This document shows positions 59,731 to 63,076 of a DNA stretch of 64,000 bases, piece after piece. The stretch is from Actinoallomurus purpureus (GTDB lineage: Bacteria; Actinomycetota; Actinomycetes; Streptosporangiales; Streptosporangiaceae): positions 434,001 to 498,000 of the forward strand of contig NZ_JAMXMY010000002.1 in the NCBI RefSeq assembly GCF_024055795.1, read 5' to 3'. The notes below the pieces were generated by a model, which ran no database searches, was not told the DNA's origin, and saw only the letters and a list, made by a program, of their open reading frames with translations. How positions within the stretch are numbered: the first letter of the stretch is position 1; every line of letters begins with the position of its first letter. The translations under genes and the position numbers were made by a program.

Positions 59731-59800
59731 GATCGCCCAGCGTACGGCCTGGAGCGACGCGACGACGCGCCAACCCCGGGAGTGCGGAAGAATGACCGAT

Positions 59801-61186
59801 ATGACAAGCGTAGCCATCATCGGAGGCGGCCCTGGCGGCTACGAATCCGCCCTGGTCGCGGCCCAACTCGGCGCCGACGTCACGCTCGTGGAGCGCGACG
59901 GGCCCGGCGGAGCCTGCGTACTCACCGACTGCGTTCCCTCCAAGACGCTCATCGCCACCTCCACCCGCATGGCGGTCCTGTCGGAGTCGGCGTCGCTCGG
60001 CGTGCGGTTCTCCGGAGGCGGAGACGGCGAGGTCGGCGGGCCGGAGGTCGATCTCCCGCTCGTCAACAAGCGGGTGAAGGAACTGGCCTGGGCTCAGTCC
60101 GCCGACATCGAGCGGCGGGTCGCGGACGAGGGCGTACGCATCATCCGCGGCGACGCACGCCTCGTCGACCCGCAGATCGTGGCGGTCGGCGACGAGCGGA
60201 TCCACGCCGACGTCGTGCTCATCGCCACCGGCGCGACGCCGCGGGTGCTGCCCGGCGCGGAGCCCGACGGCGAGCGCATCCTGAACTGGCGCCAGCTCTA
60301 CGACCTGCCCGAGCTGCCCGAGGACCTCATCGTGGTGGGCTCCGGCGTCACCGGCGCGGAGTTCGCCGCCGCGTACCTCGCGCTGGGCTCGCGTGTCACG
60401 CTCGTCTCCTCCCGCGATCACGTGCTGCCGAACGAGGACGAGGACGCCGCACGGGTCCTCGAAGAGGTCTTCCAGCGGCGCGGCATGAACCTCCTGGCCC
60501 GTTCCCGGGCGGCCGGGGTGAAGCGCACCGCCGACGGCGTCGAGGTGACGCTCACCGACGGCCGTACGGTCAGCGGCTCGCACTGCCTCATGACGGTCGG
60601 CATGGAGCCGAACACCCGCGGGCTCGGTCTGGAGGAGGCCGGCGTCCGGCTGGACGAGTGCGGGTTCGTCCAGGTCGACAAGGTCTCCCGCACCTCCGCG
60701 CCGCACGTGTACGCCGCCGGGGACTGCACGGGAATCCTGATGCTCGCCTCGGTCGCCGCCATGCAGGGCCGCATCGCGATGTGGCACGCCCTCGGCGAGG
60801 CCGTGCAGCCGCTCAAGCTCGGCTGGGTGGCGGCCAACATCTTCACCGATCCGGAGGTCGCCACGGTCGGCGTGTCCCAGGCGCAGATCGACTCGGGCGA
60901 GGTGCCGGCCCGCATCGTGAAGCTGCCGCTCGCCACCAACCCCCGCGCGAAGATGCAGGGCTTCCTTGACGGGTTCGTGAAGCTGTTCTGCCGGCCGGCC
61001 ACCGGCATCGTGCTCGGCGGCGTGATCGTCGCGCCCCGGGCCAGCGAGCTGATCCTCGGCCTGTCCATGGCGGTGCAGCAGCATCTGACCGTCGATCAGG
61101 TCGCTCACACGTTCGTGGCCTACCCGTCCGTGTCCGGCAGCCTCACCGAGGCCGCCCGTCGCCTCATGCAGGAATCGGCCTACTGA
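59801..61186 (+). CDS. LpdA-type NAD(P)H quinone reductase / disulfide oxidoreductase family flavoprotein
   Basis: A 461-residue FAD flavoprotein of the pyridine nucleotide-disulfide oxidoreductase family. The FAD motif is VAIIGGGPGGYESALVAA, the NAD(P) motif VVGSGVTGAEFAAAYLALG, and APHVYAAGDCTG the second FAD motif. Cys39 and Cys44 (GGACVLTDCVPSKTL) have the redox CX4C spacing, but the C-terminal His-Glu dyad of lipoamide dehydrogenase is replaced by AYPSVSGS. This is therefore closest to LpdA-type quinone reductases with an intact Cys pair. The ATG at 59801 is used; an ATG at 59792 is possible. Confidence 0.88.
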   Translation: MTSVAIIGGGPGGYESALVAAQLGADVTLVERDGPGGACVLTDCVPSKTLIATSTRMAVLSESASLGVRFSGGGDGEVGGPEVDLPLVNKRVKELAWAQSADIERRVADEGVRIIRGDARLVDPQIVAVGDERIHADVVLIATGATPRVLPGAEPDGERILNWRQLYDLPELPEDLIVVGSGVTGAEFAAAYLALGSRVTLVSSRDHVLPNEDEDAARVLEEVFQRRGMNLLARSRAAGVKRTADGVEVTLTDGRTVSGSHCLMTVGMEPNTRGLGLEEAGVRLDECGFVQVDKVSRTSAPHVYAAGDCTGILMLASVAAMQGRIAMWHALGEAVQPLKLGWVAANIFTDPEVATVGVSQAQIDSGEVPARIVKLPLATNPRAKMQGFLDGFVKLFCRPATGIVLGGVIVAPRASELILGLSMAVQQHLTVDQVAHTFVAYPSVSGSLTEAARRLMQESAY

Positions 61187-61199
61187 CCCGCGGCCCCCT

Positions 61200-61290
61200 C
61201 CACGCGTCGTCGGCCGTCGCTCGTGGGCTGCTGCGCGATGACGGTCAGGGGGAGTCTGACGAAGGACCACGCGTCGTCGGCCGTCGCTCG
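61200..61290 (+). repeat. 24-bp direct repeat upstream of the DnaA-box-like cluster
   Basis: A 24-bp sequence starting CCACGCGTCGTCGGCC occurs exactly at 61200-61223 and 61267-61290, 67 bp apart. It lies between the flavoprotein stop and the DnaA-box-like sites. Confidence 0.85.
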
Positions 61291-61320
61291 ACGGCCGCGA
61301 TCGTTCAGGGGCCGGTGCCA

Positions 61321-61367
61321 CAGTCCACAGGTTGTGGACAACTACTGTGGACGACCCCTGTGGATGA
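61321..61367. promoter_or_regulatory. Cluster of four DnaA-box-like sites
   Basis: Four nonamers are present: CAGTCCACA (61321-61329, plus), and on the minus strand TTGTCCACA (61341-61333, exact actinobacterial DnaA box), TCGTCCACA (61354-61346) and TCATCCACA (61367-61359). The last three begin every 13 bp. The cluster lies in an intergenic gap between lpdA-like and DUF5313-like genes, which are convergent. Confidence 0.7.
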
Positions 61368-61381
61368 CGCGAAAGGGGAGG

Positions 61382-61723
61382 TCAGTGCGGTGGATGGCCG
61401 CGTTCCGGGTCGTCGGGCACGGGCAGCCCGTGCTGGCGCAGCCGCGCCTGCCGGATGTCGGCGGCGTTGACGCCGACGACGAAGGTGCTGCTCAGCAGCG
61501 CCAGCGCGACGACGGCCACCCGGAGGCCCCACTCGGCGGGCAGCAGCCCGAGCCCCACGCAGACCGGAGTCATGAGAACGAGGTGGCGGGCCATCATCCG
61601 GCCACGCCACCCCGCGTCGGTCAGGTCGTGCCGGACCCAGCTGAGGTTCTCCGGAGGGAGCCGGAACCCCAAGATGTAACGGGCCCACCGCAGCGGGCCC
61701 GGGTCACCGGGTAGCCGGCTCAG
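61382..61723 (-). CDS. DUF5313-like membrane protein with probable CTG start
   Basis: A 113-residue protein. The sense sequence begins with LSRLPGDPGPLRWARYILGF, then RLPPENLSWVRHDLTDAGWR, which matches DUF5313 N-termini only if translation starts upstream of the first TTG (61672). The only upstream in-frame candidate after the stop is CTG at 61723, with GGAGG 6 bases before. Two helices (MARHLVLMTPVCVGLGLLPA, VAVVALALLSSTFVVGV) follow. It is 12 bases downstream of the Gly-rich membrane protein gene on the same strand. The function is unknown. Confidence 0.65.
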   Translation of the reverse strand: MSRLPGDPGPLRWARYILGFRLPPENLSWVRHDLTDAGWRGRMMARHLVLMTPVCVGLGLLPAEWGLRVAVVALALLSSTFVVGVNAADIRQARLRQHGLPVPDDPERGHPPH

Positions 61724-61735
61724 CGGGGGCCTCCA

Positions 61736-63076
61736 TCACCAGTCGCCCCCGCCGCCGAAGTCACCCCCGCCATCGAAGCCCCCGAAGTCGCCGCCGCCGA
61801 TGTCGAAGCCACCGCCACCGCCGCCGCCATCTCCGCCACCGAAGCCCCAGCCGCCGTCGTTGTTGTTGCCGGCGTCGTACCCGGCCGCGTAACCCGAGTC
61901 GTACCCGCCGTGGCCGCCGAAGCCACCGCTGAAGATCGATCCCAGTGCGGTGCCGATGAGCAGACCGCCGATCATGTCACCGCCGCCGAAGCCGGAGTAG
62001 TACCCCCCGGCGTACGGCGCGTACGCCGGTCCGGCGTCCCAGTACGGCCGCCGCTGACCGCCGACAGTGACGAGGCGGGCGTCGGGCTCCAGGCCGGACA
62101 GCACCCGCTGCGCGTCGGCCGCGCAGGCCGGGACCGACCGGGGCGCGCCACCCGGGGGCGCCCACGTGACGTCCTGCACCGACGGGCCGTGCTGCGGGTT
62201 GAAGAAGCAGGGCGCACGCCGCTCCGGGGCCGGCAGGCCTTCGAGGCGGGCCCGCACCGCGGTCATGGAGTAGCGGCCGTCCTCCAGGGCCTCGGTGACC
62301 TTGCGCATGTCCTCCGGCCGGCGCGCCGCGTCGACCGCCGCCTTGGCCCGGTCGTAGGAGTCCATCGCCCGCTGGTAGTCGTCGCGGGCGGCCGGGTCGA
62401 GACTCGGGTCCATGACGTTCAGGTTGAGCGCGGTGATGTCCTCACCGAGCCGGGTGACGTCCTCGTAGACGCTTTCCTTCAGCTCGGCCAGCTGCTTGGC
62501 CTCCCGCTCCTTGCGCCGCTTGCGGGCGAAGAAGATCAGGCCCACGACGCCCGCGACGATGAGCACCAGGATGGCGAGCACGACGAACCCGGCCGTGGCC
62601 GACCCGGACTTCTTGTCCCCGATGGCCTTGTCGAACCGCTTGTCGAGGTTGAGCAGCAGGCTCTTGAGGTTCGAGGAGTCGCCCCGCGCCTGGGCCACCA
62701 GCTCCTTGATCTTGCTGCTGCCCAGGCCCTCGTGAGACCCCGCGAGGACCCGCTGGCCGGTGCCGTCGAGCAGGATCAGGGTGCCCTTCTTACCCAGGGC
62801 GGTGTCGAGCTGGCGCAGGCCGGCGGTGGTGACCCGGCTCTGCTTCACCACGGCGATCCGGATGGTCGACTCGTCGTCCTTGAGCGCGCTGACGACGCTC
62901 TGCTGGTCCGAGCCGGACATCGTCGCACCGGCGTCCTGGGACAGGTAGAACCGCTGGCTCTTCAGCCCCTGGACGACGTTCTGGAACGGGTCGGCGCTCG
63001 CCGGTGTGGCGAACGCGAACAACAAAGCGACGACGGCAGCCACCGCGGCGGGAATCGTCGAACGGCGAATCTTCAT
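61736..63076 (-). CDS. Gly-rich TPM-like membrane protein
   Basis: A ~446-residue protein. A signal peptide (MKIRRSTIPAAVAAVVALLF, then AFATPASA) leads to a ~150-residue extracytoplasmic domain (TIRIAVVKQSRVTTAGLRQL and TLILLDGTGQRVLAGS) resembling TPM-type domains. A membrane helix (ATAGFVVLAILVLIVAGVVG) precedes a cytoplasmic coiled-coil segment with many charged residues (KRRKEREAKQLAELKESV). The C-terminal ~90 residues are very rich in Gly, Tyr and Asp (GYDSGYAAGYDAGN, FGGGDGGGGGGGFDIGGG). ATG 63076 follows GAAGG. The role is unknown; TPM proteins have been linked to photosystem repair or stress. Confidence 0.7.
   Translation of the reverse strand: MKIRRSTIPAAVAAVVALLFAFATPASADPFQNVVQGLKSQRFYLSQDAGATMSGSDQQSVVSALKDDESTIRIAVVKQSRVTTAGLRQLDTALGKKGTLILLDGTGQRVLAGSHEGLGSSKIKELVAQARGDSSNLKSLLLNLDKRFDKAIGDKKSGSATAGFVVLAILVLIVAGVVGLIFFARKRRKEREAKQLAELKESVYEDVTRLGEDITALNLNVMDPSLDPAARDDYQRAMDSYDRAKAAVDAARRPEDMRKVTEALEDGRYSMTAVRARLEGLPAPERRAPCFFNPQHGPSVQDVTWAPPGGAPRSVPACAADAQRVLSGLEPDARLVTVGGQRRPYWDAGPAYAPYAGGYYSGFGGGDMIGGLLIGTALGSIFSGGFGGHGGYDSGYAAGYDAGNNNDGGWGFGGGDGGGGGGGFDIGGGDFGGFDGGGDFGGGGDW

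Follow-up and report, generated by a model that had tools for sequence, protein, structure and literature searches.

DnaA is the protein that starts DNA copying, and DnaA sites placed outside the origin are one of the ways in which bacteria limit re-initiation. To our knowledge, few off-origin DnaA sites are known in actinomycetes. According to excerpts of the relevant papers, datA of Escherichia coli lowers DnaA (PMC4585315), working with IHF and promoting ATP hydrolysis (PMC4585315, PMC10950094), and DnaA-box clusters of Bacillus subtilis and Streptomyces coelicolor repress untimely initiation (PMC4585315, PMC10950094). Boxes I and II of the E. coli DARS are described in part of PMC8682772 as acting via head-to-head AAA+ contacts. 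We measured the E. coli K-12 DARS1 and DARS2 regions, in both of which a plus-strand box is followed by a minus-strand box and a second minus-strand box, with a gap of 5 bp between the opposed boxes and a step of 12 bp between the tandem ones. These triples are presumably the DARS cores, to judge from their place (bioD–uvrB in one case, beside mutH in the other). In mycobacteria, excerpts of PMC7738170 report that purified DnaA enriched five regions and that homologous regions were recovered by ChIP-seq; the Rv0010c–Rv0011c site includes a palindrome of two DnaA-like boxes and is bound in vitro, and the homologous region in M. smegmatis is bound in vivo. Direct DnaA binding also autoregulates dnaA itself in S. 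lividans and in slow-growing mycobacteria (PMC8203912, in part).

The DnaA-box cluster described here lies at 61321–61367 of a 64,000-nucleotide stretch of Actinoallomurus purpureus DNA, hereafter the window (positions 434001–498000 of contig C22 in the 9.25-Mb, 52-contig assembly of genome G000). As far as the excerpts go, it resembles datA in being a non-coding, off-origin site with a predicted place near oriC, and differs from it in that the cluster is known here as boxes alone, whereas datA acts with IHF and through ATP hydrolysis (PMC4585315, PMC10950094). The clusters of S. coelicolor and B. subtilis likewise lie near oriC, as these papers describe them. With the three core boxes of DARS1 and DARS2 the cluster shares order and orientation (core box I is opposed to II, and III is in tandem with II), but its gap is 3 bp and its step 13 bp, against 5 and 12 bp in DARS. 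The Rv0010c–Rv0011c site, as excerpted, is likewise intergenic, lies outside oriC and has a two-box palindrome; by comparison, the cluster is a predicted site only, is situated at a DUF5313 gene instead of crgA and carries two further tandem boxes. As far as the excerpts list them, it is none of the five mycobacterial DnaA-bound regions.

The box cluster and its surroundings

The plus-strand nonamer CAGTCCACA (61321–61329), which has two mismatches to a DnaA box, forms the first half of a head-to-head pair, and after the 3-bp spacer GGT (61330–61332) the second half, TGTGGACAA (61333–61341, minus strand), is the perfect DnaA box TTGTCCACA. Two more minus-strand boxes follow in tandem at 13-bp steps: TGTGGACGA (61346–61354; read as a box, TCGTCCACA, with one mismatch), which is also present in two other Actinoallomurus genomes (G003 and G007), and TGTGGATGA (61359–61367; read as a box, TCATCCACA), with one mismatch to TTATCCACA and two to TTGTCCACA. 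The string TGTGGATGACGCG of this last box recurs in the dnaA promoter of the same genome. A sequence-only reading of the window had described four nonamers in 47 bases, one of them exact, with minus-strand starts at 61333, 61346 and 61359; both the coordinates and the steps of exactly 13 bp agree with the sequence. The word 'phased', which that reading also used, is apt for the regular spacing and not for helical phasing, as 13 bp is not a helical repeat.

The cluster is flanked by two genes that converge on it, both with uncertain starts: a DUF5313 gene (PF17240; 61382–61732, minus strand), whose stop codon (61382–61384) is 14 bp from the cluster, and a gene for a pyridine nucleotide-disulphide oxidoreductase (59792–61186, plus strand), whose protein has its closest named relatives in Actinoallomurus (92–93 per cent protein identity). 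The convergent intergenic region is 195 bp long and has 69.7 per cent GC. An Rfam search returned a single match, far under the gathering score and outside the cluster. The same intergenic region also holds a 32-bp direct repeat (61200–61231 and 61267–61298; 91 per cent alike, with a spacing of 67 bp), the second copy of which contains a perfect 9-bp hairpin (61278–61297) that is perhaps the terminator of the oxidoreductase gene.

Single boxes occur in the window at chance density, with seven matches to TTRTCCACA at one mismatch or fewer against 5.6 expected. At the cluster this search finds only the three minus-strand boxes and misses the plus-strand one, because that box has two mismatches. 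The array is not at chance density: even when up to three mismatches are tolerated, the window holds a single match to the 13-bp triple and a single match to the four-box pattern, and 100 dinucleotide shuffles yield neither. Density alone thus proves nothing here, and the earlier claim that the arrangement exceeds chance holds for the array. Three direct copies of TGTGGAY at gaps of 1–31 bp are found at one place in the entire 9.25-Mb genome (control, zero); the array is unique in this genome. The sole DnaA-domain match of the genome sits on another contig, in line with the earlier observation that no dnaA lies nearby. The locus is therefore a group of several boxes in non-coding DNA outside oriC that is beyond chance.

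Conservation with the DUF5313 gene

All eight Actinoallomurus genomes examined (G000 included) have the DUF5313 gene. Just past its stop codon, G000, G003 and G007 carry the four boxes in identical geometry, and G002, G005 and G006 carry the head-to-head pair with its 3-bp gap; G001 has a gap-3 pair with one degenerate half, and G004, a metagenome-assembled genome, has no box there. Thus, the gap-3 pair is present in 7/8 genomes of the genus (counting the half-degenerate pair of G001), which answers the question, raised by the sequence-only reading, of whether related genomes conserve the cluster: at least the head-to-head pair is kept at the same place. Because the four-box form is so confined and G004 lacks boxes, the cluster is dispensable. 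Among the three four-box genomes, 24/24 core positions are invariant as compared with 10/17 spacer positions (Fisher P-value = 0.0009, n = 3 genomes), and the core TCCACA of the plus-strand box is one of the invariant elements.

The cluster goes with the DUF5313 gene and not with the oxidoreductase neighbourhood. In G003 and G007 the boxes are kept although the neighbour on the far side differs (in G003 it is a PALP-family gene according to Pfam), and none of the 37 oxidoreductase loci inspected, of 80 in other genomes, has the cluster. Those 80 loci contained 23 DUF5313 genes, one of which (L031) belongs to the genus genome G004; at the remaining 22 loci, all outside the genus, neither TCCACA nor TGTGGA occurs within 150 bp past the DUF5313 stop (150 bases were present after every stop, which in L099 lies 132 bases past the match).

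In a search of 341 genomes of the family, the exact four-box geometry was recovered in four (control, zero): G000, G003, G007 and the unrelated G410. The array in G410 (L210:1488-1556) consists of a tandem 13-bp unit with a DnaA-box core beside an integrase-like gene, so named by reading its translation. It was considered as a relative of the cluster and rejected as an independent, minisatellite-like array of 13-bp units.

The dnaA-promoter layout and the pairs around dnaA

We searched 394 genomes of the class Actinomycetes for TCCACA-N(3-5)-TGTGGA-N(6-7)-TGTGGA, a pattern that allows only steps of 12 and 13 bp, and found it in 71 of them, with no match in the control. Of the 76 matched places (the window excluded), 57 are situated approximately 31–186 bp upstream of dnaA, all in one fixed orientation with gap 3 and step 12; the distances to dnaA were extrapolated from a tblastn match. 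Two more places (L266 and L267), also with gap 3 and step 12, lie at a contig edge beside yidC, from which we infer that they are dnaA promoters as well. Five places, all with gap 5, fall between dnaA and dnaN, and the remaining 12 are before dnaB (2), before gyrB (2), after crgA (1) and at other genes (7), with gene names at the non-dnaA places, except crgA, read from translations. The pair with a tandem box is thus a signature of DnaA sites. Its step is 12 bp in 59/59 places at known (57) or inferred (2) dnaA promoters, and 13 bp in 8/12 places that are at neither the dnaA promoter nor dnaA–dnaN, the latter being a small count. The step-13 places include two kinds of triple boxes, each found in two genomes that belong to a single genus: those with gap 5 separate an rplI-like gene from dnaB (L221 and L222, near 1501), and those with gap 3 separate a DUF721-like gene from gyrB (L214, near 1501, and L243:1520-1547). 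Across the phylum, TTRTCCACANNNTGTGGA was found in 35/198 genomes (with one control match in one genome); the full pair is therefore common, though not universal, in the class.

In all eight Actinoallomurus genomes, the dnaA promoter itself reads NNGTGCACA, 3 bp, TGTGGACAA and, at a step of 12 bp, TGTGGATGA, with strict tandem boxes. Its opposing box is TTGTGCACA (one mismatch) in three genomes and (G/C)CGTGCACA in five; with respect to this box, the window cluster is nearer to the class form than is the promoter of its own genus, where the box is weaker and has a TGCACA core. In the dnaA–dnaN region of the genus, the step between the closest tandem boxes is 10 bp, and additionally 11 bp in five genomes. 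The 13-bp step of the window cluster, which according to the sequence-only reading could let DnaA load in order, differs from the steps in both of these regions. The cluster therefore shares with actinomycete dnaA promoters the gap-3 head-to-head boxes and, after them, a tandem box that points the same way as the second, and it differs from them in that it does not lie before dnaA, has a step of 13 instead of 12 bp, includes one extra box and is situated between convergent genes.

Boxes of the same type are found after crgA, as a triple in G269 (L283:1520-1547) and as gap-3 pairs in G000 (L159:1563-1577) and G001 (L155:1501-1515), the pairs being 16 and 19 bp, respectively, from the crgA stop. 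We take Rv0011c to be crgA, and the crgA-adjacent boxes in these three genomes are then probably the counterpart of the mycobacterial Rv0010c–Rv0011c site. More generally, the related arrays in rpmH–dnaA, between dnaA and dnaN, before dnaB and after crgA match mycobacterial DnaA-binding regions in the published excerpts (PMC7738170).

The preference for a 3-bp gap extends to the genome as a whole. In G000, exact TTRTCCACA occurs 41 times versus 20 for the reversed control, and TCCACA/TGTGGA head-to-head pairs (0–30 bp apart) occur 27 times versus 9, with gap 3 in 17 of the 27; in G001, 27 pairs were found (0–14 bp apart; control, 3), of which 15 have gap 3. Gap 3 is thus a strongly preferred head-to-head spacing. 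Direct pairs, TCCACA-N(0-30)-TCCACA, are not enriched in G000 (21 versus 23 in the reversed control), which makes tandem arrays such as the window cluster unusual there. In 557 kb of sequence, the eight most frequent inverted hexamers do not include TCCACA, whichever gap from 0 to 8 bp is considered. Protein sequence may account for some of the excess of gap-3 pairs across the genome, since a GC3 heuristic classes 15 of the 32 such pairs as apparently coding or uncertain, and L006, L151 and L169 are additional borderline cases; these calls combine the heuristic with our own reading, and the list of intergenic pairs was picked by hand. Allowing at least 5/6 matches and steps of 8–21 bp, the 17 intergenic pairs, including that of the window, have extra flanking hexamers at steps of 12 (4), 13 (3), 14 (1), 15 (1) and 20 bp (1), and the other 15 pairs have only one, at step 19. 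Three G001 pairs (L176, L177 and L178, at 3964308, 3973673 and 3996771) have similar, GGCC-CAAGGG-like flanks, as might result from the copying of a larger element, and because of these shared flanks they are not independent.

In G001, which is assembled into three contigs, all 15 gap-3 pairs map to 2.03–4.74 Mb of the contig that carries dnaA at 3.32 Mb, and hence within 1.42 Mb of dnaA; the positional probability calculated for this belt assumes independence and ignores the gathering of conserved genes near oriC. In 22 sampled 20-kb stretches of G001, single hexamers are in clear excess only in the dnaA stretch (23 versus 6), so the belt around dnaA is a property of pairs alone. The DUF5313 locus of G001 (4,009,860) lies inside the belt, 0.69 Mb from dnaA (3,318,493), and is in this genome origin-proximal. 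By synteny only, the window cluster would also be approximately 0.7 Mb from dnaA: a coding pair at C22:217981 matches the G001 pair at 3,761,240, which lies in a gene of similar size. No origin could be placed by GC skew, which was too noisy both in the window and in the 22 G001 stretches.

Candidate functions of the cluster

On balance, we consider it probable that the cluster is a lineage-specific, off-origin DnaA control site, a sink or regulator situated between convergent genes. Since its neighbours converge on the cluster, it cannot repress the promoter of either, and for the window we rejected the idea that the cluster controls transcription of an adjacent gene; the earlier remark that the neighbours give no promoter reason for the cluster is correct in this genome. 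With no neighbouring promoter to repress, the cluster is most likely a sink or regulator of DnaA. The head-to-head pair, with boxes 3 bp apart, would nucleate cooperative DnaA binding, and the two tandem boxes at 13-bp steps would extend the DnaA complex in one direction. At a place some 0.7 Mb from oriC, the cluster would double soon after initiation, and the doubled cluster could tie up DnaA or change its nucleotide state and so damp re-initiation, as reported for datA and for the clusters that B. subtilis and S. coelicolor have near oriC. Alongside the observed anatomy, rarity, genus conservation, dnaA-promoter layout and place in the belt of pairs, the DnaA binding, its cooperativity and the titrating or regulatory effect are predictions from the sequence pattern.

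The pair could instead be mainly an RNA hairpin that ends transcription of DUF5313, and of the convergent gene, with the likeness to DnaA boxes as a by-product. The DUF5313 stop is only 14 bp away from the cluster, the pair folds into stems of 6–9 bp in seven genus genomes (with loops of 3 nt in six and 5 nt in one), wobble pairing in G001 preserves the stem despite the decay of the second box, and the intergenic region folds as RNA somewhat better than its shuffles (z = -2.4; 2/200 shuffles as good). Set against this, a terminator scan of 61100–61800 found none, and the stem with a T-run that marks an intrinsic terminator is absent from the window: at most two T occur in the 10 nt after the hairpin in G000, G002, G005 and G006, and only G003 and G007 have four T there, along with another hairpin, which ends in TTT, immediately after the pair. 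A hairpin also leaves unexplained the extra tandem boxes with their invariant cores, the belt and the layout upstream of dnaA, and we regard this explanation as unlikely. Quite unlikely, too, is a neutral or decaying relic with no present function, such as a fragment copied from the dnaA promoter or a product of slippage of a 13-bp unit. The string TGTGGATGACGCG, common to the cluster and the dnaA promoter of its genome, the range of box numbers from zero to four among the genus genomes and the independent origin of tandem 13-bp box units in G410 are all consistent with a relic; the invariance of the cores across three species whose spacers have diverged, and the retention of the gap-3 pair in 7/8 genus genomes, argue against one.

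The order and orientation of boxes that the cluster has in common with E. coli DARS1 and DARS2, together with the head-to-head AAA+ contacts of DARS boxes I and II (PMC8682772, in part), raise the question of whether the cluster recharges DnaA, with ADP-DnaA bound head to head and at the tandem box releasing its ADP. In DARS, however, the gap is 5 and the step 12, as against 3 and 13 in the cluster, the layout is not specific to DARS because dnaA promoters share it, and a literature search for DnaA-reactivating DARS in Actinobacteria found none; we regard a DARS-like role as attractive but unlikely. A related and rather doubtful reading is that of a DnaA control station with DARS topology, in which the dnaA-promoter layout, its step lengthened from 12 to 13 bp and its place a promoter-free site approximately 0.7 Mb from oriC, would act on the nucleotide state of DnaA. 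Of the roles proposed by the sequence-only reading, that of a non-chance DnaA-box cluster outside oriC stands, and that of an accessory initiation site does not. Multiple, regularly spaced DnaA boxes are what an accessory or cryptic origin would have, but the locus has only four of them and no AT-rich unwinding element beside them (the most AT-rich 50 bp of 61187–61500 has 44 per cent AT, as compared to 64 per cent in dnaA–dnaN), which makes an origin highly improbable.

Off-origin DnaA-box clusters are already known, and the DUF5313 site adds one with a re-spaced dnaA-promoter layout. In a literature search of partial coverage, in which neither name was a search term, no DnaA-box cluster was reported for Actinoallomurus or beside DUF5313. 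The cluster is a small, testable candidate for an off-origin DnaA site in actinomycetes. The sequence rule that it shares, gap-3 head-to-head boxes plus a tandem box, identifies dnaA promoters throughout the class and, once its gap-5 variants are included, also places like four of the five mycobacterial DnaA-bound regions. If the doubtful reading as a control station of DARS topology were true, the step would distinguish promoter-type (12 bp) from control-type (13 bp) sites.
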